Below are positions 6,642 through 53,802 of a DNA stretch of 53,962 nt, piece by piece. The notes beneath the pieces were generated by a model. The model did no database searches. It had not been told where the DNA came from and saw nothing but the letters and a program-made list of their open reading frames with translations. The position numbers and the translations under genes were made by a program. This stretch comes from Mariprofundus sp. EBB-1 (GTDB lineage Bacteria; Pseudomonadota; Zetaproteobacteria; Mariprofundales; Mariprofundaceae), in NCBI RefSeq assembly GCF_003665155.1, contig NZ_RCFQ01000019.1, forward strand, positions 1 to 53,962. The letters run 5' to 3'. How positions within the stretch are numbered: position 1 is the first letter of the stretch; each line of letters opens with the position of its first letter.

Positions 6642-9600
6642 ATGATATATATCAAACTCAAACAGATGATTGTGCTGATGCTTGTTGCAGGCTTGATGGC
6701 CTGTGGTGGAGGAGGCGGAGGTGGCGCCACAGCAGGCGGCGGACTCTCGGGTACAGCCGCAACCGGTAAACCTATTGCCGGTCTCGTCTTCGTAAAAGAT
6801 GCCAATGGCGTCGTGCAGCAGATTGGAACGCAGGTCAACGGTAGTTTCACCCTGAACGCAACCGGCCTTACTCCACCCTTATTACTCAAGGTAGTGCCGA
6901 CCAATGGCAGTGCACCGCTATATTCTTATGCATCCAGCGTCACGCAAACCATCAATATCACACCGCTGACCAGTCTGGCTCTGTTTCTGGGCAACAATAA
7001 AGCGGATCTCGGAGCGTTATATGCCACATGGAATGGCACAGGCATCACCGCTGCAGCTATCGCCAGCGCACAGAAAACAGTCAATGCCAACTTTGCCAAT
7101 CAGTTACGCGCTGCCGGTGTGAACCCGGCCAGCTACGACTTCATGACAACCCCCTTCACAGCCAACAGCACCGGTGTAGATGGATTCCTCGACACACTAC
7201 GTCTTACGATCAATCAGCAGGCAGGCACTTTCACAACCAGCATCAATGCCGCACCATTGAGTTTTAATAAGCGTATCAATACGGCAGGCATCAATATCGG
7301 TGCCCCTGTTGTAGCTGAAACCATACCACCTGTTGTCACGGTTCCTGCGAATATCACGGTCGCAGCCGCGAAGGGAGCAACCACCGTAGCGGCCACACAA
7401 GCAACAATTGCGGCATTTCTGACTGCAGCCACGGCAACCGATAATACCGCAGTCGTTGGTCCGATTACGCATAATGCACCGGCGACCTTTCCTGCAGGTA
7501 CTACAACAGTCACATTTTCAGCCGCGGATGCTGCAGGCAATACAGGTACAGCAACGGCCACCGTTACTGTGACCGTCAATGTAGTCCCGACTAATCCGAC
7601 CATCACTTCACTGACGCCCGCCAGCGGTGCAGTAGGCAGCACGGTAACCATTAATGGAACAAACTTTATTTCAGCCACCTTTCCTGCAACCGCCGTTACT
7701 TTTGGCGGCAATATCCAGGCTACTGGTGCCAATATTGTCAGCCATACTGCCACCCAATTTGTCGTCAATGTTCCGGCAGGCGCACAATCCGGCCCCATCA
7801 CTATTCAACATATTCCCAATGGACCATCAGTAAGCACGGCCAACTTTACGATTACGACGGCAGGTGGTGGCGCTCCGGCTGATGTCACTCCTCCAGTCGT
7901 AACCCCACCAGCAAATATCACGGTTACGGCAGCGCAGGGAGCAACCAGCGTACCTGCTACTCAGGCTGCCATTGCCACCTTCCTTGGTGCTGCAACAGCT
8001 ACAGATAACGTGGCCGTAGTCGGGACCATCACCAATAATGCACCTGCCAACTTTCCTGTCGGTGTAACCACTGTAACTTTTTCCGTCTCGGATGCGGCAC
8101 GCAATACCGGTACGGCTACTGCAACCATCACAGTTAATGCGGCTCCGCTTGTGGATGCCACGCCGCCAACAGTGACCCCACCAGCAAACATCACCGTCAC
8201 GGCAGCGAAGGGTGCCACCAGCGTTCCCGCTACCCAGACTGCAATTGCCACCTTCCTAGGTGCTGCAACAGCTACAGACAATGTGGCCGTAGTCGGAGCC
8301 ATCACCAATAATGCACCGGCCAACTTCCTGATCGGTGCAACCACTGTCACCTTCTCAGCCTCGGATGCGGCGGGCAACACCGGCACTGCGACTGCAACAG
8401 TGACCGTCAATGCAGCGCCAGCTCCGGGTGGAGCCAGTCCGTTAAGTGCTTTTTGCCCGGCCACGCCGAATAATGTGCCACCCACATTAAATGGTTGGAA
8501 ATGGGCTAATCCATCTCCACAAGGTGCCAGCTTGTTAGCCGTTGCTGAAGGCAATGGTGTATTTGTTGCTGCTGGCGCAAGCGGACAGATGGTTCGAAGT
8601 ACTGATCGTGTGAACTGGACTGTTGTGGATTCAGGAACTAGATCCAAAATCGACAATTTATCATGGGATGGTAATGTTTTTTATGCATTTGCGTCTAAAT
8701 CATCTACAACCCCCGAGACTATTCTCAGTTGTGATGGTATCACATGGGCGAAGGTGCCATTTAATATTACATTTGACCCAGCTATACCAGTGCGTAGCCG
8801 AGCTTACAGTAACGTCGGAATTCATAGCCCTGTTTTTATCAATGGGAATTATTTTGCGACTGATGGAAGCTTAATATATAAAAGTACGGATGGCCTTAAT
8901 TGGGCTGCAAGCCTCTTAAACTCACCGGTCAACCCGGGTTTGATCCTTCAGCTTGTTAGCAATGGCACAAACACCATTGTCGCTCTGGGCCGTGATGGTC
9001 TTTATACTTCAACGGATTCGGGGATAACATGGCAAAAGCCGGCAACGACCCCTGTTTTCAATTATACAGGGTATGGATTTGCTAAAAAATTGGTTTGGAC
9101 AGGTAGTCAGTTTGCAATATATGTGAGTAAAACGGAGCTATCCACCAGTACTGACGGACTGACGTGGACACCGGTTGTCACCAATTCCGCAATTCCCGCC
9201 TTTAATGTCGTCTATCATCCGGAGATGATCTATTTCAATGGCACCGCTATCATGTATGGCGGTAATGACTTCACTCAGGTTACTTCCTATAACAACAATG
9301 CTGGCTTTTACTTGCTGGATGCAACCAATAATTGGATAGAAGGCGATTGGCACAGCACGAATCAGAGAGCCTTAACAAAGGTCAATGATGCTATAGTAAC
9401 CTCCGCCAATACCCTGTTGGTAGTCGGTGATGGCGGCATGATTGCAGAACAAACCGGAGCCAGTGTACCATCACAGAATGCTGTAAATCGTAACTCATGG
9501 ACCCGTCGCTCTGGTGATGCCACGCCCGGACTATTGACCAGTATCGCTACCAACGGTACGTCCTATGTCGCAGTTGGCACAGAAACAGATATTCTTTACT

Positions 9601-10532
9601 CCATTGATGGCATCACATGGACCAGACCAGTATTACCAACCTTTAAATTTGCAATTTGGAGCCCCGCTACACCAGTTACCGGGGAAATAGGTCAGGTGCA
9701 ATGGACAGGCACACAATACGTTGCCTTAGGCGACACGGGTATGATCCTGACCAGTGTGGATGGACAAACATGGGTCATCGAGAAAAAACCCGGCACAAGC
9801 AATGCTTTACCGACCCCTGACGTCAGTACATTTTTTAACGGGACTTTATTCTGGAACAATTCATTTCGCTTAAGAACGCGTACCGCAGTCAACACATATG
9901 GAACAGTAGACCCGAGTGCTGGGGCTCCTTTAATTGGTGGTGCTGGAGTCATTGTGACATCTGGCTTTGCTGACAATGGAACACGCCTCGTATCGGTAGG
10001 TAACTATGGTATCACCACAACACTGGATGGCGTGACATGGGTTTCATCCTCATTGGCTAATATCCTCAATAGTGCCAATTTTGAATTTACCGGTGTCGCT
10101 TTTAATGGAGTCAAATTTCTGGCTATCGCGAATTACAGCGTGACTGATCCGATTACCAACATCACCACAGTCACTGAAAATGTATTACAGAGTCTGGATG
10201 GGTTGGCCTGGACTCAAATTACAACCTTCCCGAATGGAAAACCATTAACGCTGGGCAGCACGTTGCGAGGTCATGCCCGTAATATTCTGAAAGGGAGCAA
10301 TGGCAAATTCATGGCTTTCGGCAGCACTATTGCCAATAGCAGCCCACGAGAAAGTCTGGATGGTATTACATGGACTGATTCAATTCTCCCTCAGGGATCT
10401 GCTAACAACTCCATTGATGCGCGTGTTTACGATCCTACTGGCAGCTATTGGAGGAGAAGCTGGGGGGACTTCATTAAAACCCCTACGCATGAGATTTTAA
10501 CCGGCTTTAGAAATGGCATTCTGGTGAAGTAA
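6642..10532 (+). CDS. Giant surface lipoprotein with HYR, TIG and BNR-like propeller modules
   Basis: This 1296-residue protein starts with a lipoprotein signal ending LMAC (Cys21), followed by a run of seven glycines that may act as a flexible tether. A carboxypeptidase-regulatory-like beta domain (about 36-110) and a mostly helical part follow. Then come HYR module 1 (about 225-312), a TIG/IPT Ig-like module (about 315-405), and HYR modules 2 and 3 (about 413-595). The rest (about 600-1296) carries ten SxDGxTW-type motifs such as STDGLTW, SIDGITW and SLDGITW, the turn signature of BNR/Asp-box beta-propellers. The ATG is preceded by GGGGGAT. The architecture suggests a secreted adhesion or ligand-binding protein. 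I see no catalytic residues and cannot name a ligand. It is followed by an inverted-repeat element and then a two-component pair. Confidence 0.85.
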   Translation: MIYIKLKQMIVLMLVAGLMACGGGGGGGATAGGGLSGTAATGKPIAGLVFVKDANGVVQQIGTQVNGSFTLNATGLTPPLLLKVVPTNGSAPLYSYASSVTQTINITPLTSLALFLGNNKADLGALYATWNGTGITAAAIASAQKTVNANFANQLRAAGVNPASYDFMTTPFTANSTGVDGFLDTLRLTINQQAGTFTTSINAAPLSFNKRINTAGINIGAPVVAETIPPVVTVPANITVAAAKGATTVAATQATIAAFLTAATATDNTAVVGPITHNAPATFPAGTTTVTFSAADAAGNTGTATATVTVTVNVVPTNPTITSLTPASGAVGSTVTINGTNFISATFPATAVTFGGNIQATGANIVSHTATQFVVNVPAGAQSGPITIQHIPNGPSVSTANFTITTAGGGAPADVTPPVVTPPANITVTAAQGATSVPATQAAIATFLGAATATDNVAVVGTITNNAPANFPVGVTTVTFSVSDAARNTGTATATITVNAAPLVDATPPTVTPPANITVTAAKGATSVPATQTAIATFLGAATATDNVAVVGAITNNAPANFLIGATTVTFSASDAAGNTGTATATVTVNAAPAPGGASPLSAFCPATPNNVPPTLNGWKWANPSPQGASLLAVAEGNGVFVAAGASGQMVRSTDRVNWTVVDSGTRSKIDNLSWDGNVFYAFASKSSTTPETILSCDGITWAKVPFNITFDPAIPVRSRAYSNVGIHSPVFINGNYFATDGSLIYKSTDGLNWAASLLNSPVNPGLILQLVSNGTNTIVALGRDGLYTSTDSGITWQKPATTPVFNYTGYGFAKKLVWTGSQFAIYVSKTELSTSTDGLTWTPVVTNSAIPAFNVVYHPEMIYFNGTAIMYGGNDFTQVTSYNNNAGFYLLDATNNWIEGDWHSTNQRALTKVNDAIVTSANTLLVVGDGGMIAEQTGASVPSQNAVNRNSWTRRSGDATPGLLTSIATNGTSYVAVGTETDILYSIDGITWTRPVLPTFKFAIWSPATPVTGEIGQVQWTGTQYVALGDTGMILTSVDGQTWVIEKKPGTSNALPTPDVSTFFNGTLFWNNSFRLRTRTAVNTYGTVDPSAGAPLIGGAGVIVTSGFADNGTRLVSVGNYGITTTLDGVTWVSSSLANILNSANFEFTGVAFNGVKFLAIANYSVTDPITNITTVTENVLQSLDGLAWTQITTFPNGKPLTLGSTLRGHARNILKGSNGKFMAFGSTIANSSPRESLDGITWTDSILPQGSANNSIDARVYDPTGSYWRRSWGDFIKTPTHEILTGFRNGILVK
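7881..8426 (+). repeat. Tandem 273-bp direct repeat encoding HYR modules 2 and 3
   Basis: Two consecutive 273-bp (91-codon) units, 7881-8153 and 8154-8426, are closely similar at the DNA level and stay in frame. Shared stretches include GTGGCCGTAGTCGG and CATCACCAATAATGCACC. Module 1 (about 7315-7575) is a more diverged relative separated by the TIG module. The similarity indicates recent duplication within the gene and a site where module number could vary. Confidence 0.85.
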
Positions 10533-45492: not shown

Positions 45493-46086
45493 ATGGCATT
45501 GTTAATGGATTGGAAGATGAAGTACCTGTTTGCGTTTATATGCTCGGTTTGTTTTTTAATCGCAGGAGAGGCTCAGGCGCAAAATTTTACGCGTGAGCAC
45601 GATGCGGTTGATGATTGTGCCGACAGTTCCGTTTCCTATGAAGAGACTTCAGGTCTGACGAGAGAGGAAACCATTCATTTAATGGATCAGGCGCTGTTGA
45701 ACTCTCTGAATAAATATGAACGTTGCCAGAACAGGCAGTTGAATGCTGCTGTTGCTAATGATGCAGCAAATGACGCGGAGAGTGGCAGCGAGAGATCAAC
45801 CGCCAGTTCTGAAATGACGGGGACAAGTAAGAGCGCCGATAGTGAGCGTCAGGATCAGGCGGCAGATGCTGATCCTGAAGCGTTGGATCAGCGTAAAAAC
45901 GTAAAAATGAAAAAGGTGTTAGGCAGCGGAAAGGTGCCGGATGATATCCCTCCTGCTGATAATGATAGTGTGCTTGAAGAGCAAATTCGGCAGGCTGCCA
46001 TCCATGAGACTGATCCTGTGATTAAAGAAAAACTGTGGAATGAATATAGGAAATATAAGGGTTTACCTGTTACGGGTAAGCATTAG
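45493..46086 (+). CDS. Secreted acidic protein, first gene of the motor-vWA operon
   Basis: This 197-residue protein has a signal peptide ending AQA (about residue 29 from ATG 45493; an in-frame ATG at 45517 gives a more compact signal). The mature part has two cysteines (in VDDCADSS and YERCQNRQ), a low-complexity acidic Ala/Ser/Asp-rich middle and a lysine-rich C-terminus. I recognise no family. The 154 bases upstream hold no convincing promoter. The next gene begins 13 bases after its stop, and everything to 53802 follows without a gap above 15 bases. Confidence 0.7.
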   Translation: MALLMDWKMKYLFAFICSVCFLIAGEAQAQNFTREHDAVDDCADSSVSYEETSGLTREETIHLMDQALLNSLNKYERCQNRQLNAAVANDAANDAESGSERSTASSEMTGTSKSADSERQDQAADADPEALDQRKNVKMKKVLGSGKVPDDIPPADNDSVLEEQIRQAAIHETDPVIKEKLWNEYRKYKGLPVTGKH

Positions 46087-46099
46087 GAGGGCGAAAAGC

Positions 46100-47347
46100 A
46101 TGATGGTGTTTAAAAAGATGGTTTCGATTGTTATTGCCTGCTCTGTCTTGTTATCGGGCTGTGCGACAGGTACTGGCGGTTCACCCCATACTAAGGTGGG
46201 GCCACAACCCTCATCTGCATATGATAAAACGGCGGTGAAGGAAGAAGTCGCTCCAGCCATTGAGAAACCAAAGCTTGATATCATTGTGCCTGTCTTCGAT
46301 CCGGGACTTCCTGATGATCCCGAAGATTATGAAGCTGAAGGTGTTTGGCCAGAACTGCGTCGCGCTGAAGCATCCCGTTTTGCCTACCAGATGAAATTGG
46401 CACTTGAAGAAACGGGAGCATTTGGAGCAGTTCGGGTGATGCCTGATAGCAGTGCAACCGGTGATCTGTATGTTGTAGGTAAGATTAATAAGTCAAATGG
46501 TGTGGATATCGATATTGATATCAATGTGTCTGATATCAGTGGAAAAAAGTGGTTTGATAAATCATTTGACCATGAAGTGGCCGCCGACTTTTACAATAAT
46601 ATAAGAAATAAAGGTAAAGATCCCTACGCGCCTGTGTTCAAGGAGGCCGCAGAAAAACTGGTGGAAGCGTTGAATGATCATAAGGATAAGCAGTTAACAG
46701 ATCTGCAGGCGCTTACTGATTTGCGTTTCGGGGCAAATTTTTCTGATGATGCTTTCTCCCGATACATGCGTGTGAAAGGCAACAAGTTTACGCTGCTGGG
46801 ATATCCGGATGCCAATGACAGCATGTTACGGCGAGTGAAGGCGATTCGGGTTAGGGATCAGTTGTTTATCGATCGTATGCAGCCGCATTACGAACAATTT
46901 AATCAGAAAATGGAAACCAGTTATGCATTGTGGCAAAAACAGAGTTTTGAAGAGGTGAAGGCGGCGCACAAGGCAAAAATGGAGTCGATCAGTAATGCTG
47001 CTGCTGGTATTGGTCTGATTGCACTTGCTGTGCTATCGGCTGTCGCTGGTGGAAACTCAAATTCCACCGGTGGTGTTGTGGCGGGAACAACCGGGGCTAT
47101 CGTTGCCGGACAGGTTGGCATGGGTATGTTGGGTTCCAGCGTAAAGATGAATGAAGAGTCTAAGTTTCATAGAGATGCGTTAATTGAACTTGGTCAATCT
47201 ATTGAGGGTGAAATGGCACCTCAGGTAGTTGAACATGAGCAGACTACGGCCAAATTAACGGGCAGCGCAAAGCAGCAGTTTTCTCAATGGAGAGCTTTTC
47301 TTAAAAGAATGTTTGAGCAAGAAGCCACTCCAGATGTTCAGCTTTAG
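46100..47347 (+). CDS. Lipoprotein with glycine-zipper-like segment, motor-vWA operon
   Basis: This 415-residue protein has a lipoprotein signal ending LLSGC (Cys21). An ordered part (about 60-190) has a strand-helix pattern reminiscent of outer-membrane assembly lipoproteins, though I cannot name a family. A helical, charged region follows, then a hydrophobic Gly/Ala-rich stretch (about 295-345, containing GIGLIALAVLSAVAGG and GTTGAIVAGQVGMG) that could be a membrane hairpin. AGGAGG lies 8 bases before ATG 46100. As an outer-membrane lipoprotein it could anchor the operon's machinery to the outer membrane. Confidence 0.75.
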   Translation: MMVFKKMVSIVIACSVLLSGCATGTGGSPHTKVGPQPSSAYDKTAVKEEVAPAIEKPKLDIIVPVFDPGLPDDPEDYEAEGVWPELRRAEASRFAYQMKLALEETGAFGAVRVMPDSSATGDLYVVGKINKSNGVDIDIDINVSDISGKKWFDKSFDHEVAADFYNNIRNKGKDPYAPVFKEAAEKLVEALNDHKDKQLTDLQALTDLRFGANFSDDAFSRYMRVKGNKFTLLGYPDANDSMLRRVKAIRVRDQLFIDRMQPHYEQFNQKMETSYALWQKQSFEEVKAAHKAKMESISNAAAGIGLIALAVLSAVAGGNSNSTGGVVAGTTGAIVAGQVGMGMLGSSVKMNEESKFHRDALIELGQSIEGEMAPQVVEHEQTTAKLTGSAKQQFSQWRAFLKRMFEQEATPDVQL

Positions 47348-47362
47348 CAGCCCCCTTTTCAG

Positions 47363-48817
47363 ATGCTAGAAGAGAAACTACAACAAGCGAGTCTAGCCAG
47401 TCAAAAGCAGAGTCAGCGTATGCTATTGTTGGTTACATTGGTGCTTGTGTTCAGTGTTGTGGCTGTAGTGCTGATGACAATGATTGGATCTAAGATGCCA
47501 GAACCTGTTGCTTCGCAATCACCTTCAGTGTCCTTGCAAGCTCAGACACCGGTTCAGCAGCAGGCACCGATTCAGGATATGCATCAGCAGGGGATTCGCG
47601 AGGTTGTGATGAAGCGTTTGCAGGCCTTTGAAGAAGAGCAGGAGCCTGCCCTTGCGCGCGCGAATCTGGAGCAGTGGAAGCCGGAAGAAAATGCGGCACT
47701 GCATACACTGAAGGAAGATGTGCTCTCATCCTTTGCCAAAGGAGACTACGCCCTTGCAAGCCAGAGACTTGATCAATTGTCATTGCTGGCACAGCAGCTG
47801 TTAGTGGAATGGGGTGAGACTTTTGTATCGGAAATGTTGATGGCGGAGAATGCTCTCAAAAATGATGATTATGTCGCCGGTAAATTTCATGTGACAAAAG
47901 CACTATTGCTTAAGCCGGATGAGTCTGGAGCCAAGAACCTTCTGAAAAAACTGGAAGCGCTGCCTGAGCTGTTGGAACTATTGAAGCGTGCAGATGTAGC
48001 ACGCATAGAAAATAATTTTGAGAAAGAACTGACGGTACTGGAACATGCATTTGCGATTGCCCCCGATCGGGGTGGCCTCAAACAGCGAAAAGAGATGTTG
48101 GCTGAAACATTGAAGGAGAGGACATTTTCGCAATGGATAAGCAGCGCATGGCAGGCACTGGAAAAAAACGATATCAACACAGCCAGGCTTAATTATCATC
48201 GAGCAAAACGTCTGTATGCCAAACGCGCTGAGTTGAAGTCTCTCAATGATGCCATCGCTAAAATCTCGGCAAGGCTTGATCTAAAGCAGTGGCTTAGCGT
48301 TGCAGGGCAGATGATCAGGCAAGATGAGTGGCTTAAGGCAGAGCGAATCTACGCGGAATCATTACAGCGACATCCTCAGGATAAAACGCTTCGAGATGGA
48401 TTCCAGCTGGCCACGAAGGTGGTGAGTTTGCAAGCTGCCTTGAACGACTATATCACACGATCAGACAGATTATCGGCACAAAATATTTCTGACGAAGCAA
48501 AAGATACGCTGATCCAGGCAGAGGTGTTTGCGCGCAATAGTAAACGATTAAGTCTTCAAATTACGAAGTTGAAAACCTTGCTCGCAAAAGTGAATGTAAA
48601 AAGAGCTGTAATGGTGAAATCGGATAATAACACATATATTCTGGTACGCGGTGTCGGGAAGGTTGGTCTTACGCCCGGTCGTGAAATTCAGTTGAAGGCT
48701 GGAGAGTATACCTTTGAAGGTACCCGCCCGGGTTACAAATCCAAGCTTGTGCAGGTGCGTGTGCCGCTTGATGGGGCGATGATCAGGGTGGAGGTCATTT
48801 GTGATGAACGCATCTGA
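47363..48817 (+). CDS. Membrane-anchored TPR-like protein with PEGA-like C-terminus
   Basis: This 484-residue protein has one N-terminal helix (about 20-41), a Gln/Pro-rich linker, then a long helical region (about 70-405) with TPR-like helix pairs, for example near ENDYVAGKFHVTKALLL-like and KAERIYAESLQRHPQDKTL segments. The last 65 residues are strand-rich and resemble a PEGA module (LKAGEYTFEGTRPGYKSKL). I infer a periplasmic scaffold. It overlaps the next gene by 14 bases. No close ribosome binding site precedes its ATG. Confidence 0.7.
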   Translation: MLEEKLQQASLASQKQSQRMLLLVTLVLVFSVVAVVLMTMIGSKMPEPVASQSPSVSLQAQTPVQQQAPIQDMHQQGIREVVMKRLQAFEEEQEPALARANLEQWKPEENAALHTLKEDVLSSFAKGDYALASQRLDQLSLLAQQLLVEWGETFVSEMLMAENALKNDDYVAGKFHVTKALLLKPDESGAKNLLKKLEALPELLELLKRADVARIENNFEKELTVLEHAFAIAPDRGGLKQRKEMLAETLKERTFSQWISSAWQALEKNDINTARLNYHRAKRLYAKRAELKSLNDAIAKISARLDLKQWLSVAGQMIRQDEWLKAERIYAESLQRHPQDKTLRDGFQLATKVVSLQAALNDYITRSDRLSAQNISDEAKDTLIQAEVFARNSKRLSLQITKLKTLLAKVNVKRAVMVKSDNNTYILVRGVGKVGLTPGREIQLKAGEYTFEGTRPGYKSKLVQVRVPLDGAMIRVEVICDERI

Positions 48818-50873
48818 ATCAGACAACCCAACGGGCGGAGAGAATCAGAGTTCCAGCCATGTAGCACGAATGACTGCCGAGCTATTGCAAGCCAAGGCCA
48901 GGCAGAGAAGACGATATATATTTGCCACGCTTGCGTTGATTCTAAGTCTGTTTGTTATGCTTGCGATTTTGGTGCTTTCCAATGCCACCAGCATAGATGT
49001 TGAGCCTGAAGAGGCCGGGCAGATTGCCAGCGTTCGGGTTGTAGATGGCGTGGGAAAGGCACTCGGTCATAAGGTCTATTCCTGGAGTGCAAATCCAACG
49101 ATTGAAGTCTCTGCTACGGGGTTCAGGGCATCGCATAAAACCTTATCAGCATCTGAAATTGGCGGAACGGTAAGAGTTGAATTGCAGCCCTTGCCAGGAG
49201 AACTTCATATCATCACAGCACCGGAGTCAGATCAAACACGTTGGTTTGTTGATGATCGCATGGTGTCTGTTGGGGCGGCGTTCAAGCAAGATCTGTATGC
49301 TGGAAACTATAGCATTACAATCGATAGTCCCTACTACCTGATAAAAACGCTTCCCATTACAATCAAGAGAGCTGAGCAGTTGCAGCTGAGTGAATCTCTG
49401 GAAAAGGTTTCCGGTCAGTTTCATATCAGCACTGTTCCAGCCGGTGCCGAGGTTCATATCAATGACGAGCTGATTGGCAAGGCTCCAGTCTCTATCGCAA
49501 AGCAGGGCGGGGCGTATCAGATTGTGGTCTCCTATGGTGATTATGAGCCGATTACCGAGGCGGTAGAGCTGACCAATAGTGCAAGTGTGGTGGAAAGAGA
49601 TTACAGGTTGCTTCTGAAAGGGGCTTATCTGGATGTGCATACCGCCCCTCAGGGTGGGCAGCTGTTGTTGGATGGAAAGGTGGTGAAGGCAGGACGTTTG
49701 CAGGTGAAGGCAGGGCTGGTTCATTCACTCAGATATGAAAAGGACGGTTACTTTCCACAGCATCGTAAGGTCTCTGCAAAATCGGGCGAGGAGAAAAGCA
49801 TCGCTTTCAACTTGAAGGCAGAGATGGGCCTTGTACGTGTTGTCTCTAGTCCAATTGCGGTGGTGAGCATCGATGGCAAAGAAGTGGGAAAAACACCGTT
49901 GGAACTCGAGTTGTCTGCAATATCTCATCACCTGGTGATCCATAAAAAAGGTTACCGTTCGCACCAACAGATTGTTGTGCCAAGCAGCGCATCTGTGCAA
50001 CGGATCAAGGTGGTCTTACCGACTGAAATAGAGGCCAAACTTGCAGAGTCACCTGCATTGATGCGCAATAGTGCAGGCATTGAACTTAAACTGTTCAAGC
50101 CAGATGATCTGTTTGTGATGGGAGCTCCGCGACATGAGAAAGGACAACGGGCCAATGAGTTTTTAAGAACGGTGCGCTTGACCAAACCATTCTACATTGC
50201 CACGCATGAGGTATCGCGCAGTCAATTTTCGCGATTTAAAGCTGTTGCCGGAGCCAAAAATGAACCGGTGACATCGATTAGCTGGATTGAAGCGGCAGCG
50301 TATTGCAACTGGCTTAGTCAGCAGGAGGGCATGGTTCCATTTTATGATATTCGGGCTGGTCGCTTGATCGGTTCGAATATCGAATCGGCTGGATACCGCT
50401 TACCAAGTGAGGCGGAGTGGGAGTGGTTATCCAGAAAAGCAGGCAAGTCAAAACAGACCAGGTTTGCCTGGGGTGATGACACTACGATTGCTCCGAAAGC
50501 GGGAAATATTGCGGATGAATCGGCCAAAGGTAGCACAGCGCGCTATGTGCCCAACTATTCCGATGGCTTTGCCGGTGTCGCACCAACAGGCAGTTTTCCT
50601 GTTGAAAGCATGGGTTTATATGATCTGACTGGCAATGTCAGTGAGTGGGTACACGATGTATATGCGTTGGTACCGAATGCCGGTGTGAAGGCAGAGGTAA
50701 ACCCCTTAGGGGCGAGAATTGGTGATACCCATACCGTTAAAGGTTCAAACTGGCGTTCTGGCGGCATCACTGAACTTAGAGCGGCTTATCGTGAAGGTAA
50801 AAAAGCAGGGCGAGATGATATAGGGTTTAGAGTCGCAAGGTATGTTTATGGAGGAATCAATGGAGAAAAATAG
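48804..50873 (+). CDS. PEGA-repeat protein with FGE/SUMF1-fold C-terminal domain
   Basis: This 689-residue protein has a membrane helix (about 38-59), a periplasmic region with about four PEGA-like modules (about 125-410; e.g. STVPAGAEVHINDELIGKAP and SSPIAVVSIDGKEVGKTPLE) and an FGE/SUMF1-type domain (about 426-689). The latter shows SISWIEAAAYCNWLSQQEG, GYRLPSEAEWEWL, LYDLTGNVSEWVHD and DIGFRVAR. The copper-binding cysteine pair of true formylglycine-generating enzymes is missing; only one cysteine lies in the domain. A binding or structural role is therefore more likely than oxidation. A GTG at 48801 is directly before the ATG. It overlaps both neighbours by 14 bases. Confidence 0.85.
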   Translation: MNASESDNPTGGENQSSSHVARMTAELLQAKARQRRRYIFATLALILSLFVMLAILVLSNATSIDVEPEEAGQIASVRVVDGVGKALGHKVYSWSANPTIEVSATGFRASHKTLSASEIGGTVRVELQPLPGELHIITAPESDQTRWFVDDRMVSVGAAFKQDLYAGNYSITIDSPYYLIKTLPITIKRAEQLQLSESLEKVSGQFHISTVPAGAEVHINDELIGKAPVSIAKQGGAYQIVVSYGDYEPITEAVELTNSASVVERDYRLLLKGAYLDVHTAPQGGQLLLDGKVVKAGRLQVKAGLVHSLRYEKDGYFPQHRKVSAKSGEEKSIAFNLKAEMGLVRVVSSPIAVVSIDGKEVGKTPLELELSAISHHLVIHKKGYRSHQQIVVPSSASVQRIKVVLPTEIEAKLAESPALMRNSAGIELKLFKPDDLFVMGAPRHEKGQRANEFLRTVRLTKPFYIATHEVSRSQFSRFKAVAGAKNEPVTSISWIEAAAYCNWLSQQEGMVPFYDIRAGRLIGSNIESAGYRLPSEAEWEWLSRKAGKSKQTRFAWGDDTTIAPKAGNIADESAKGSTARYVPNYSDGFAGVAPTGSFPVESMGLYDLTGNVSEWVHDVYALVPNAGVKAEVNPLGARIGDTHTVKGSNWRSGGITELRAAYREGKKAGRDDIGFRVARYVYGGINGEK

Positions 50874-51006
50874 ACGATCCAGGACACGGTTCTTTATCCT
50901 TGCCATGCTCGGACTAGTGGCACTCGGCATGGCAGTAGGTGCTGCCAATGCTGCGATGCAGTCGATTAAGCTCAATTCAGCAGCAACATTTCCGGTGGAT
51001 ATATAA
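50860..51006 (+). CDS. 48-residue signal-peptide or single-helix miniprotein
   Basis: This small frame starts inside the end of the preceding gene (14-base overlap) and stops one base before the proton-channel gene (TAA directly followed by ATG). GGAGG lies 6 bases upstream. The product has a basic start (MEKNRRSRTR), a hydrophobic segment (FFILAMLGLVALGMAVGA) and an ANA site followed by a tail of about 17 residues (AMQSIKLNSAATFPVDI). It is either a secreted peptide after signal cleavage or a single-helix membrane subunit. The exact packing between two real genes and the strong ribosome binding site support it as a gene. Confidence 0.75.
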   Translation: MEKNRRSRTRFFILAMLGLVALGMAVGAANAAMQSIKLNSAATFPVDI

Positions 51007-51765
51007 ATGACAGATATGATAAAGAGCTTTATAGCACTGATTGTTAGTGCGATTTCCGTTCACCTCGCATATATCGGTTTTGTACGACCTCAAGCCGATT
51101 TGATTATGCAAATGGCCAAGCAGGCAGGGCAATCAGCACCGCGCGATATCCTTGTGATTATGAAAGATTATGAGCAGGAGATCTGCATTATCCTGATGAT
51201 CTGGGCTGGTTATTTGATCTTGAGTAAATGCATGGCCATTCTCAAAGACCGCTATTTGTTCAGTGTCGATCTGCTCGATCAAAGTGAGCAGCAAGGTGCT
51301 GATCTCCATAGCGCGCTTACAAATTTAGAAAGCTTGCCGGTGGAGACCAAATCAACACCGCTGGTGATGACATTAATGGCCAGCGTGCGCCGATATCTGA
51401 TCACCAGCGATGTGCAGAATACATCCGATGCGATTGATTCGAGTATTGAAGCGATGGCCATTCGGCAAGATGCGGGTAACTCCATGATCCGGTATTTGAT
51501 CTGGGCTATTCCTTCGATTGGGTTCATCGGGACAGTGCGCGGCATTGGCGGAGCACTGGCTCAGGCCGACCAGGCCCTGGCCGGGGATATTGGTGGCATG
51601 ACCAACAGTCTGGGGCTGGCCTTTAACTCAACCTTTGTGGCCTTGCTGATCAGTATCGTTCTGATGTTTATGCTGCATCAGCTACTGCGATTGCAGGATG
51701 GTCTTGTGGTGGATACGCAGGATTATTGTGAGCAGTTTCTCTTGAAACGGATTTCCGAGCAGTAG
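51007..51765 (+). CDS. MotA/TolQ/ExbB-type proton channel protein
   Basis: This 252-residue protein has four helices (about 5-25, 58-78, 160-182, 203-226) and a cytoplasmic loop. The last two carry the family core IGFIGTVRGIGGALAQAD and NSLGLAFNSTFVALLIS. TolQ, ExbB and MotA form pentamers that use ion flow to turn or move a TolR, ExbD or MotB dimer. Four helices is the MotA-like count. The likely dimer partners are the two vWA proteins that follow, whose N-termini look like ExbD/TolR. There is no tolR, exbD or motB gene of ordinary form nearby. Confidence 0.9.
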   Translation: MTDMIKSFIALIVSAISVHLAYIGFVRPQADLIMQMAKQAGQSAPRDILVIMKDYEQEICIILMIWAGYLILSKCMAILKDRYLFSVDLLDQSEQQGADLHSALTNLESLPVETKSTPLVMTLMASVRRYLITSDVQNTSDAIDSSIEAMAIRQDAGNSMIRYLIWAIPSIGFIGTVRGIGGALAQADQALAGDIGGMTNSLGLAFNSTFVALLISIVLMFMLHQLLRLQDGLVVDTQDYCEQFLLKRISEQ

Positions 51766-51772
51766 GCCCAAG

Positions 51773-52834
51773 CTGAAAATCCACCGTAAAACAGAAGGCT
51801 TTAATATTGCATTTTTGGATATTATGGCCTCAGGCCTTGGTGCGATTATCCTCGTGCTGATTCTGGTTAAACAGGATGTGGACAGATCCTCTCCTGAAAC
51901 AGAATTGTTGAATGCGGATCTGGCCCGTATTGAGCAGCAGGATGCCGATCTTAAGCGTGCTATCGCCAGTGTTGATCAGGATAGTTTAAAAGCCGCTGCT
52001 GCAATCACCAAAGTGCAGGCGAAAATCTCAGATGTGAAATCCGAACTGATACAAAAAAGTGACCAGCTGTCGCAAAAAGCATTACAACTCTCGGCTGTAA
52101 AAAAGACGATAAAAAATGCGCCTAAAGCAAAAAAAGATGATGTTGTTCGCAGTGACCCCGGTGGTGAAGAAGATTATATCATGGGGATCAAAGTAGAGGG
52201 TAAGCGAATCGTCTTCCTTATCGATAGCAGTGCATCGATGACAGATGAAAAGCTCATCGACATCATCCGTCGAAAGAACAGTTCAGCGCTAGAGAAAAAA
52301 AGCGGGCCTAAATGGAAACGAACGCTACGTATCGTGCGTTGGTTACTTGCCCGCAGTCCTAAATCCAGTCAGCTGGCTGTAGTCACTTTTAATAAACAGG
52401 CAACAGCACTTGGCGGTGGCTGGTTCTCCAGTCGCGATGCGGCAGCACTTGGAACCGTTCAGCGTGATCTCAATACGCTAGTGCCAACAGGCTCTACAAA
52501 TTTACAACGGGGGCTGAAAAAGTCAGTCGCCTTAAAGCCAACGGATATTTATCTGGTGACCGATGGCTTGCCTACCGATGGCATATCAAGATACGCCAGC
52601 CTCAATCCGTTTGCTGCTTGTGGCTCGCTATTGGGAAAATCCAATAATATTTCAGGGTTATGTCGCGTGAAACTGTTTCGCCAGAGTGTTGCGGATAGTG
52701 CACCGGGGCAAGGCACTAAAATCAATGTCATTCTACTGCCGATTGAGGGTGATCCGGATGCAGCACCTGAGTATTGGCGTTGGACTGCTGCAACGGGTGG
52801 TCTGCTGATTAGTCCGGCATCGAGCTGGCCATGA
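51773..52834 (+). CDS. ExbD/TolR-like anchored vWA protein 1
   Basis: This 353-residue protein (CTG start) has an N-terminal helix headed by FLDIMASGLGAIILVLILV, with Asp16 at its beginning as in TolR/ExbD. A coiled coil (about 40-115) and a vWA domain (about 140-345) follow. The MIDAS metal site is complete: DSSAS (Asp151), TGSTN (Thr239) and TDG (Asp264). No ATG, GTG or TTG lies between a stop at 51743 and residue 15. CTG 51773 has AGG 7 bases before it and yields LKIHRKTEGFNIAFLDI, which aligns with the start of its paralogue MKLRRHNIEIFTISFLDI. It begins 7 bases after the channel gene. A partner of the channel is inferred. Confidence 0.82.
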   Translation: MKIHRKTEGFNIAFLDIMASGLGAIILVLILVKQDVDRSSPETELLNADLARIEQQDADLKRAIASVDQDSLKAAAAITKVQAKISDVKSELIQKSDQLSQKALQLSAVKKTIKNAPKAKKDDVVRSDPGGEEDYIMGIKVEGKRIVFLIDSSASMTDEKLIDIIRRKNSSALEKKSGPKWKRTLRIVRWLLARSPKSSQLAVVTFNKQATALGGGWFSSRDAAALGTVQRDLNTLVPTGSTNLQRGLKKSVALKPTDIYLVTDGLPTDGISRYASLNPFAACGSLLGKSNNISGLCRVKLFRQSVADSAPGQGTKINVILLPIEGDPDAAPEYWRWTAATGGLLISPASSWP

Positions 52835-53802
52835 AACTACGCAGACACAATATTGAGATTTTTACCATCTCATTCCTGGATATTATCTCATCAGCCTTTG
52901 CGGCAGTGGTGTTACTGGTGTTGATCTCCAAACCCTTACCTAATCCTTTGGATCTGGGAGCAACTGAATCCTTGCTGAAGCAGGTGGTGTCGGCGGAGAG
53001 TCAGCTTTCTGATTCAGCCAGAGAGCTTGAAAAGAAACGTCAGGAACTGGCTCGCTTGCAGCAGATTAATAGCTTGCTGCAGGCTTCTGAGAAGGGCGCA
53101 CGGAAAGAGATGGGCGATAAAACCAATCAGCTGGAGAAGCTCGATGGTGACCTTGATGGATTATCCTTGGTGCAATCATCTCTCAATAGAGCCTCCATCA
53201 GACCAAGTTCAGCGACGGTCAGGGATGAAGAGGTTGGCGGCATTCCTGTTGATAGCGATTATATTATTTTTATTGTCGATACCTCGGGCAGTATGCTTCA
53301 GATTTGGAATAGCGTGTCTAAGACCGTGCTTAATGTGTTGAAGATTCATCCCAAGGTGAAGGGATTTCAAATTATGAATGACAATGGCATGCCTCTGATC
53401 TCAAGTTATTCAGGTAAGTGGATTCGCGATACGCCGCAGCGGCGTAAGAGCGTGATGAATGTGTTCGGCGCATGGAAAAGTGCGTCAAACAGTAGTCCGG
53501 TTGAAGGGCTTGAAGTGGCGTTGAAAAAATATGCCAAGCCGAATATTTCACTGTCGATCTATATTTTTGGAGATGACTACACCGGTGCATCGTATGATGC
53601 GGTGATTGATAGTGTTGATGCGCTAAATCGCAATAAAATAACAGGGAAAAAATTAGCCAAAATTCATGCGGTCGGGTTCATGTCCAACTATGCCACCAAT
53701 CGCTTCTCTATTCTTATGCGCGAAGTGACACAACGTAATGGTGGTACTTTCCTGGCATTGCCCTATGACCAGAACCGGGCAACAGGTATGCGTTTTCAAT
53801 AA
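52831..53802 (+). CDS. ExbD/TolR-like anchored vWA protein 2
   Basis: This 323-residue paralogue of the preceding protein has the anchor SFLDIISSAFAAVVLLVLI (Asp17 at the start of the helix), a coiled coil (about 48-115), and a vWA domain (about 143-320) with DTSGS (Asp150) and an acidic YIFGDDY. The middle MIDAS threonine is replaced by a serine (NSSPVEGLEVAL). It begins in ATGA with the previous gene. The two differ strongly in sequence, so they are not a recent duplication. They may form a heterodimer in the channel. Confidence 0.85.
   Translation: MKLRRHNIEIFTISFLDIISSAFAAVVLLVLISKPLPNPLDLGATESLLKQVVSAESQLSDSARELEKKRQELARLQQINSLLQASEKGARKEMGDKTNQLEKLDGDLDGLSLVQSSLNRASIRPSSATVRDEEVGGIPVDSDYIIFIVDTSGSMLQIWNSVSKTVLNVLKIHPKVKGFQIMNDNGMPLISSYSGKWIRDTPQRRKSVMNVFGAWKSASNSSPVEGLEVALKKYAKPNISLSIYIFGDDYTGASYDAVIDSVDALNRNKITGKKLAKIHAVGFMSNYATNRFSILMREVTQRNGGTFLALPYDQNRATGMRFQ

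Follow-up and report, generated by a model that had tools for sequence, protein, structure and literature searches.

A conserved bacterial operon encoding a MotA/TolQ/ExbB-type channel and two different vWA proteins: a candidate envelope motor of a recently proposed kind

An eight-gene operon near the end of the window (the whole stretch of 53,962 nucleotides from Mariprofundus sp. EBB-1 that was analysed) is a real, conserved system of a recently proposed kind, and several of its parts are apparently undescribed. On balance, the operon seems to encode a proton-motive-force-driven, envelope-spanning motor in which one vWA1 and one vWA2 protein would form the axle. The main idea of the first-pass annotation of this DNA has already been published: according to its accessible text, a 2025 study describes a TolQ-like channel with a heterologous vWA pair replacing TolR/ExbD (Mol Biol Evol msaf138, PMC12204202), and for an Idiomarina family it includes an AlphaFold3 model with this architecture (PMC12204202). 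Apparently undescribed are the fixed operon, a GldK-like FGE-fold protein devoid of catalytic cysteines, a conserved CTG start codon, and a small peptide, g5, with a P-x-D-(I/M) end.

Organization of the operon

The genes g1 to g8 (45493–53802) are tightly packed on the forward strand, and the last two, located after the channel gene g6, encode the vWA pair. Seven bases separate g6 from the vWA1 gene, and the vWA2 start overlaps the vWA1 stop by four bases. Scans for promoters and terminators returned nothing beyond chance. No exbD, tolR or motB gene occurs in the operon; within the host genome assembly (2.88 Mb, 63 contigs), PF02472 (ExbD/TolR) and MotB_plug match only genes on other contigs, the PF02472 matches being located on two of them (C28 and C3).

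The operon core opens with a conserved gene, g1 (45493–46086), whose product is a secreted protein with a low-complexity middle and a conserved C-terminus (...DIPPADND...LWNEYRKYKGLP), for which no family model scored above its curated cut-off. In a long version of the operon, a TPR protein that matches TonB_C weakly (E 0.003–0.008) is encoded upstream of g1 (L086:15977-17254; L087:16654-18003). The product of g2 (46100–47347), as judged from the alignment, is a lipoprotein with the lipobox LSGC, an alpha/beta domain, and then a helical, glycine-rich tail; because the lipobox Cys has Ala next to it, the protein is probably located in the outer membrane. Its AlphaFold2 model has a pLDDT of 62, and matches to the TolB N-domain and LptE recur at E 0.02–0.3; since these fold matches are not significant, any likeness to TolB/LptE may be taken as a hint only. 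Weak TPR matches and synteny characterize g3 (47363–48817), which has one N-terminal TM helix, TPR-like repeats, and a PEGA-like C-terminal end; the repeats, weak here, are clear in the g3 homologue of locus L086.

The protein encoded by g4 (48801–50873) combines an N-terminal TM helix with PEGA domains (1.3e-27) and a C-terminal FGE/SUMF1-fold domain (FGE-sulfatase, 3.5e-35). Its GSNWRS...LRAxYR motif, which we take to occupy the position of the catalytic-cysteine motif of FGE, contains no Cys. In 16 of 16 members, GldK heads the list of NCBIfam families for g4; its score here is 69.9 bits, with the cut-off at 350. No lipobox was found in g4, the TM helix occupying the N-terminus instead.

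The two vWA proteins

The first-pass annotation had described two non-identical copies, each opening with a basic stretch, an FLDI motif and a hydrophobic helix, and it had placed both correctly. Indeed, vWA1 (g7, 51773–52834) and vWA2 (g8, 52831–53802) share the basic stretch, the pattern F-x-[IL]-[AS]-F-L-D-I, and the helix, with an identity of ~25% over the first 160 residues (E about 1e-6). Asp16 of the vWA1 anchor (51773–51871; Asp codon 51818–51820) is invariant in 38/38 proteins, as is Asp17 of the vWA2 anchor (52831–52932; Asp codon 52879–52881) in 37/37. The anchors, with a mean consensus agreement of 0.71 and 0.73 in the two copies, are better conserved than the stalks and the vWA domains; together with the invariance of the Asp in all 75 proteins, this shows that the anchor pattern is not due to chance. 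The 1,766-aa anchor fusion that seemed to be present in locus L066 was discarded, as the apparent fusion is a run of N.

Both proteins continue with a helical stalk and a vWA domain, which take the place of a peptidoglycan-binding part, as had been suggested. The AlphaFold2 model of vWA2 comprises a TM helix (residues 15–33), an 80-residue helix (42–121), and a domain matched by Foldseek to vWA structures at a probability of 1.00. In Pfam, vWA1 matches VWA_2 (1.5e-6) and vWA2 has no significant match; neither g7 nor g8 matches OmpA-like peptidoglycan-binding domains, and the only solved structures related by sequence to the vWA proteins are coiled-coil and weak matches.

The reported difference between the metal sites also holds. 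A full MIDAS is present in vWA1 (D151-x-S153-x-S155, T242, D264), whereas Ser replaces Thr in vWA2 (D150-x-S152-x-S154, S221, D248). This Ser occurs in 37/37 copy-2 proteins and is therefore a fixed property of that copy; it may still act as a MIDAS ligand. The heads differ in their C-terminal regions as well. The vWA2 of the window ends in ALPYDQNRATGMRFQ (53764–53802), with the contig end close by, and its relatives stop at ALPL, ALA or AL.

The start codon of vWA1 is CTG (51773–51775) in all 11 zetaproteobacterial copies, and none of them contains an ATG, GTG or TTG from the preceding in-frame stop up to this codon. In loci L051–L053, that stop lies only four codons before the CTG. Elsewhere, the same position carries other weak starts, namely GTG in L060 and TTG in L061 and L062. 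The TTG at 51815 was rejected as a start, since it would remove the conserved basic stretch; a gene caller restricted to ATG, GTG and TTG would presumably choose it and thereby lose that stretch.

The channel and the affinity of the anchors

The g6 gene (51007–51765) encodes a channel of the MotA/TolQ/ExbB type (PF01618, 2.8e-12) with hydrophobic helices at residues 8–26, 61–79 and 209–227, plus a less hydrophobic segment containing GTVRGIG. The pore threonines T176 and T209, along with P169 and G172, are invariant in 31/31 channel proteins. Profile comparisons with TolQ/ExbB and with MotA gave about equal scores, both weak, and a search by sequence yielded no solved relatives of the channel. 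In loci L174 and L183, the channel gene sits behind vWA2, while g5 stays after g4.

The specific assignment of the anchors to ExbD/TolR by the first-pass annotation found no support in profile comparison: ExbD was reached with a probability of 2.6–4.4%, inside the range of shuffled profiles, and PF02472 matched neither the full proteins nor the isolated anchors. Moreover, an ExbD-type periplasmic domain is absent, the periplasmic part consisting of the long helix and the vWA fold. The broader idea of a B-subunit-like anchor fared better, given that the TM helix begins with an invariant Asp, that the channel gene is adjacent, and that the operon has no exbD or tolR. Against MotB, a profile of 35 anchors scored 55%, a value reached by 0 of 60 column shuffles (ExbD, 2.6%), and a profile of 75 anchors scored 15%, reached by 1 of 40 shuffles (ExbD, 4.4%); for scale, 15% is also what a comparison of ExbD with MotB, accepted as homologues, yields. 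The MotB alignment is ungapped and places Asp on Asp. At the sequence level, the anchors thus appear B-subunit-like and lean towards MotB through a weak profile similarity, a likeness rather than proven descent.

Distribution and age of the pair

The operon is kept in Zetaproteobacteria, Gammaproteobacteria, Nitrosomonadaceae, Nitrospina and one deltaproteobacterium. Within the genus, 10 of 23 members carry the system, with the g1–g8 order preserved as far as the contigs reach; the same order was found in two more zetaproteobacterial genera, one Nitrosomonadaceae genome, gammaproteobacterial genomes, and Nitrospina, and the short deltaproteobacterial contig shows g4–g8. Among 369 Gammaproteobacteria, a vWA1 match that is long or full-length occurs in 31, of which 28 have vWA2 directly behind vWA1 (the other three are partial matches or reach a contig end). 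An uncharacterised envelope machine, probably an energised one, is present in about 8% of the gammaproteobacterial genomes sampled, and several other lineages have it too. No plasmid-borne copies were found.

With neighbourhood profiles, the core of the operon was also recovered from nearly all of 19 further loci, where two lipoprotein-like genes are often added. Many gammaproteobacterial operons also contain a gene for a 440-residue protein with no Pfam match between the channel and vWA1 (L086:7398-8759; L087:7552-8856).

A quick maximum-likelihood tree, built from 75 proteins, has a single branch with a support of 100 that splits all vWA1 from all vWA2. The distances from Asp to MIDAS in the two copies of a genome (135 and 133 residues here) covary with r=0.90 in a thinned set (n=23), a coefficient behind which stand only two or three independent changes. 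As judged from these comparisons, vWA1 and vWA2 are an ancient, retained pair, as a hetero-pair requires.

Relation to known systems

The closest counterpart is the transpore-helix vWA family of Idiomarina, which likewise combines a tolQ-like gene, a cluster without tolR or exbD, a heterologous vWA pair, an Asp in the helix, and a ring of Thr in the channel (PMC12204202, accessible text). Compared by description rather than by Idiomarina sequence, the operon shows every feature stated there for this family, including the absence of an SHLS motif. The differences lie in the PEGA/FGE protein, the lipoprotein and the small peptide, which the accessible text does not mention for the Idiomarina family (PMC12204202). 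The SHLS-type vWA force transducers of the Tichowtungia family, also inner-membrane-tethered vWA proteins encoded beside motor genes, are described in the same accessible text as binding beside a TolQR motor via the SHLS motif, with tolR retained (PMC12204202); here, in contrast, the anchors lack SHLS and themselves carry the Asp.

The 5:2 motors MotAB, ExbBD and TolQR share with the operon an A subunit of the PF01618 family and a single-TM B subunit with a conserved Asp. The corresponding features were found here as a PF01618 protein with pore Thr, a B-type Asp in 75/75 proteins, and a TM helix in the vWA2 model. In contrast to those motors, the B subunits here are of two different kinds, carry a stalk and a vWA domain, and have no OmpA-like or ExbD periplasmic domain. 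Two copies had been presented as a departure from stators that are usually homodimeric. The part of this claim that stands is the existence of distinct, conserved copies; its novelty does not, since paired B subunits have a precedent in AglQ and AglS, which act with AglR (PMC9389320), and a vWA-tipped pair is described in the accessible text of PMC12204202. The Myxococcus gliding system resembles the operon in combining one channel with two different B-type subunits, but AglQ and AglS have TolR-like domains and no vWA.

The gene order gldK-gldL-gldM is typical of the type IX secretion system. Like GldKLM/PorKLM, the operon encodes an FGE-fold protein, a channel and a long-stalked axle, in that order; it differs in that g4 scores far under the GldK cut-off and is membrane-anchored, and in that the axle is a vWA pair here and GldM there (for the roles of GldK, GldL and GldM, see PMC8986121). 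A Zorya (ZorAB) defence system was considered and rejected (ZorA 0.033, no ZorB match).

A proposed motor and its alternatives

In the model that we infer, which extends to the heterodimer, a 5:2 stoichiometry, rotation, partner contacts and cell function, five copies of g6 would encircle a two-helix axle made of one vWA1 anchor and one vWA2 anchor. With its one Asp, each anchor would contribute to the ion path, alongside two threonine rings, and ion flow would make the axle rotate with respect to the channel. The paired stalks (80 helical residues, about 12 nm) would hold the vWA heads off the inner membrane, where the heads could bind operon partners via their MIDAS sites. Force might then be passed to an outer-membrane assembly containing the lipoprotein g2 and the inner-membrane PEGA/FGE-fold protein g4.

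Taken alone, the vWA1–vWA2 heterodimer is the best reading of the pair and a fairly probable one. Its main competitor, which we consider unlikely, would have vWA1 and vWA2 form homodimers in separate g6 pentamers that pull different partners. Two such motors sharing one channel would likewise give strict co-retention, and the differences between the heads, in MIDAS Thr/Ser and in the C-terminal regions, also count in favour of this reading. To our knowledge, B subunits with known structures are homodimers. AglQ and AglS, for their part, may form either heterodimers or homodimers. Against two homodimers, a single channel gene serves both copies, nearly all genomes keep the two genes together and side by side, the stalk lengths are matched and covary, and the reading frames are tightly coupled. 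The system is a clean test of whether a motor axle can be an obligate heterodimer, the same question that AglQ/AglS pose.

Rather improbable is a second alternative, in which the channel and the vWA pair would act as a gated sensor or anchor (a fixed stator or regulator) whose heads tether to the cell wall or to outer-membrane partners, and in which no rotating force transducer would be involved. vWA domains are mainly binding modules, which counts in its favour. However, the invariant Asp and the Thr rings are features of energised 5:2 motors, and the succession of FGE-fold protein, channel and axle recalls gldK-gldL-gldM. The shared gene order, with GldK heading the list for g4 in all 16 members, might suggest a GldKLM-type motor, for gliding or type IX secretion, that moved into Proteobacteria. 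This is very improbable: g4, at 70 bits, stays far under the cut-off of 350 and is anchored by a TM helix rather than being a lipoprotein, and among the operon proteins no match to a GldL, GldM or GldN model was reported.

The small peptide g5

Between g4 and the channel gene, g5 (50860–51006) encodes a tiny secreted or membrane-anchored peptide of 48 aa (54 aa if the start is at 50842), in which a short tail follows a signal or anchor segment and for which there is no family model. Its C-terminus (50989–51006) is a conserved free end, FPVDI-stop. In 38/38 operons that have the region, several of them near relatives of one another, the peptide ends [F/Y/M/I]-P-x-D-[I/M]-stop, and 34 of the 38 ends read F-P-[VAIL]-D-I; the stretch before the tail is very variable in length. 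Among 11,549 ORF ends, no FPxDI end was found elsewhere. When 37 genomes were searched with a codon pattern for the g5 end, it matched the operon in 10/10 operon-bearing members of the genus, as well as a further member (G022) that has a partial operon. Four matches remain, three of which end in TGG and therefore have no stop.

Within the motor proposed above, the free P-x-D-I end could provide the vWA heads or the TPR protein with a latch or a docking ligand: with its Asp and its free carboxylate, it would fit into a MIDAS site or a TPR groove. Because g5 stays behind g4 where the channel gene has moved (L174 and L183), the channel is a less likely partner for it than g4, the vWA pair or the 440-residue protein. 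An obligately heterodimeric vWA axle that is controlled or loaded by docking of the g5 tail on an operon partner (the vWA MIDAS or the TPR protein) is a tentative extension of the model, and the tail offers a small, concrete handle, with its receptor expected within the same operon.

Elsewhere in the window, positions 6642–10532 encode a probable surface protein of 1,296 residues, which matches HYR and, weakly, bacterial Ig-like domains.
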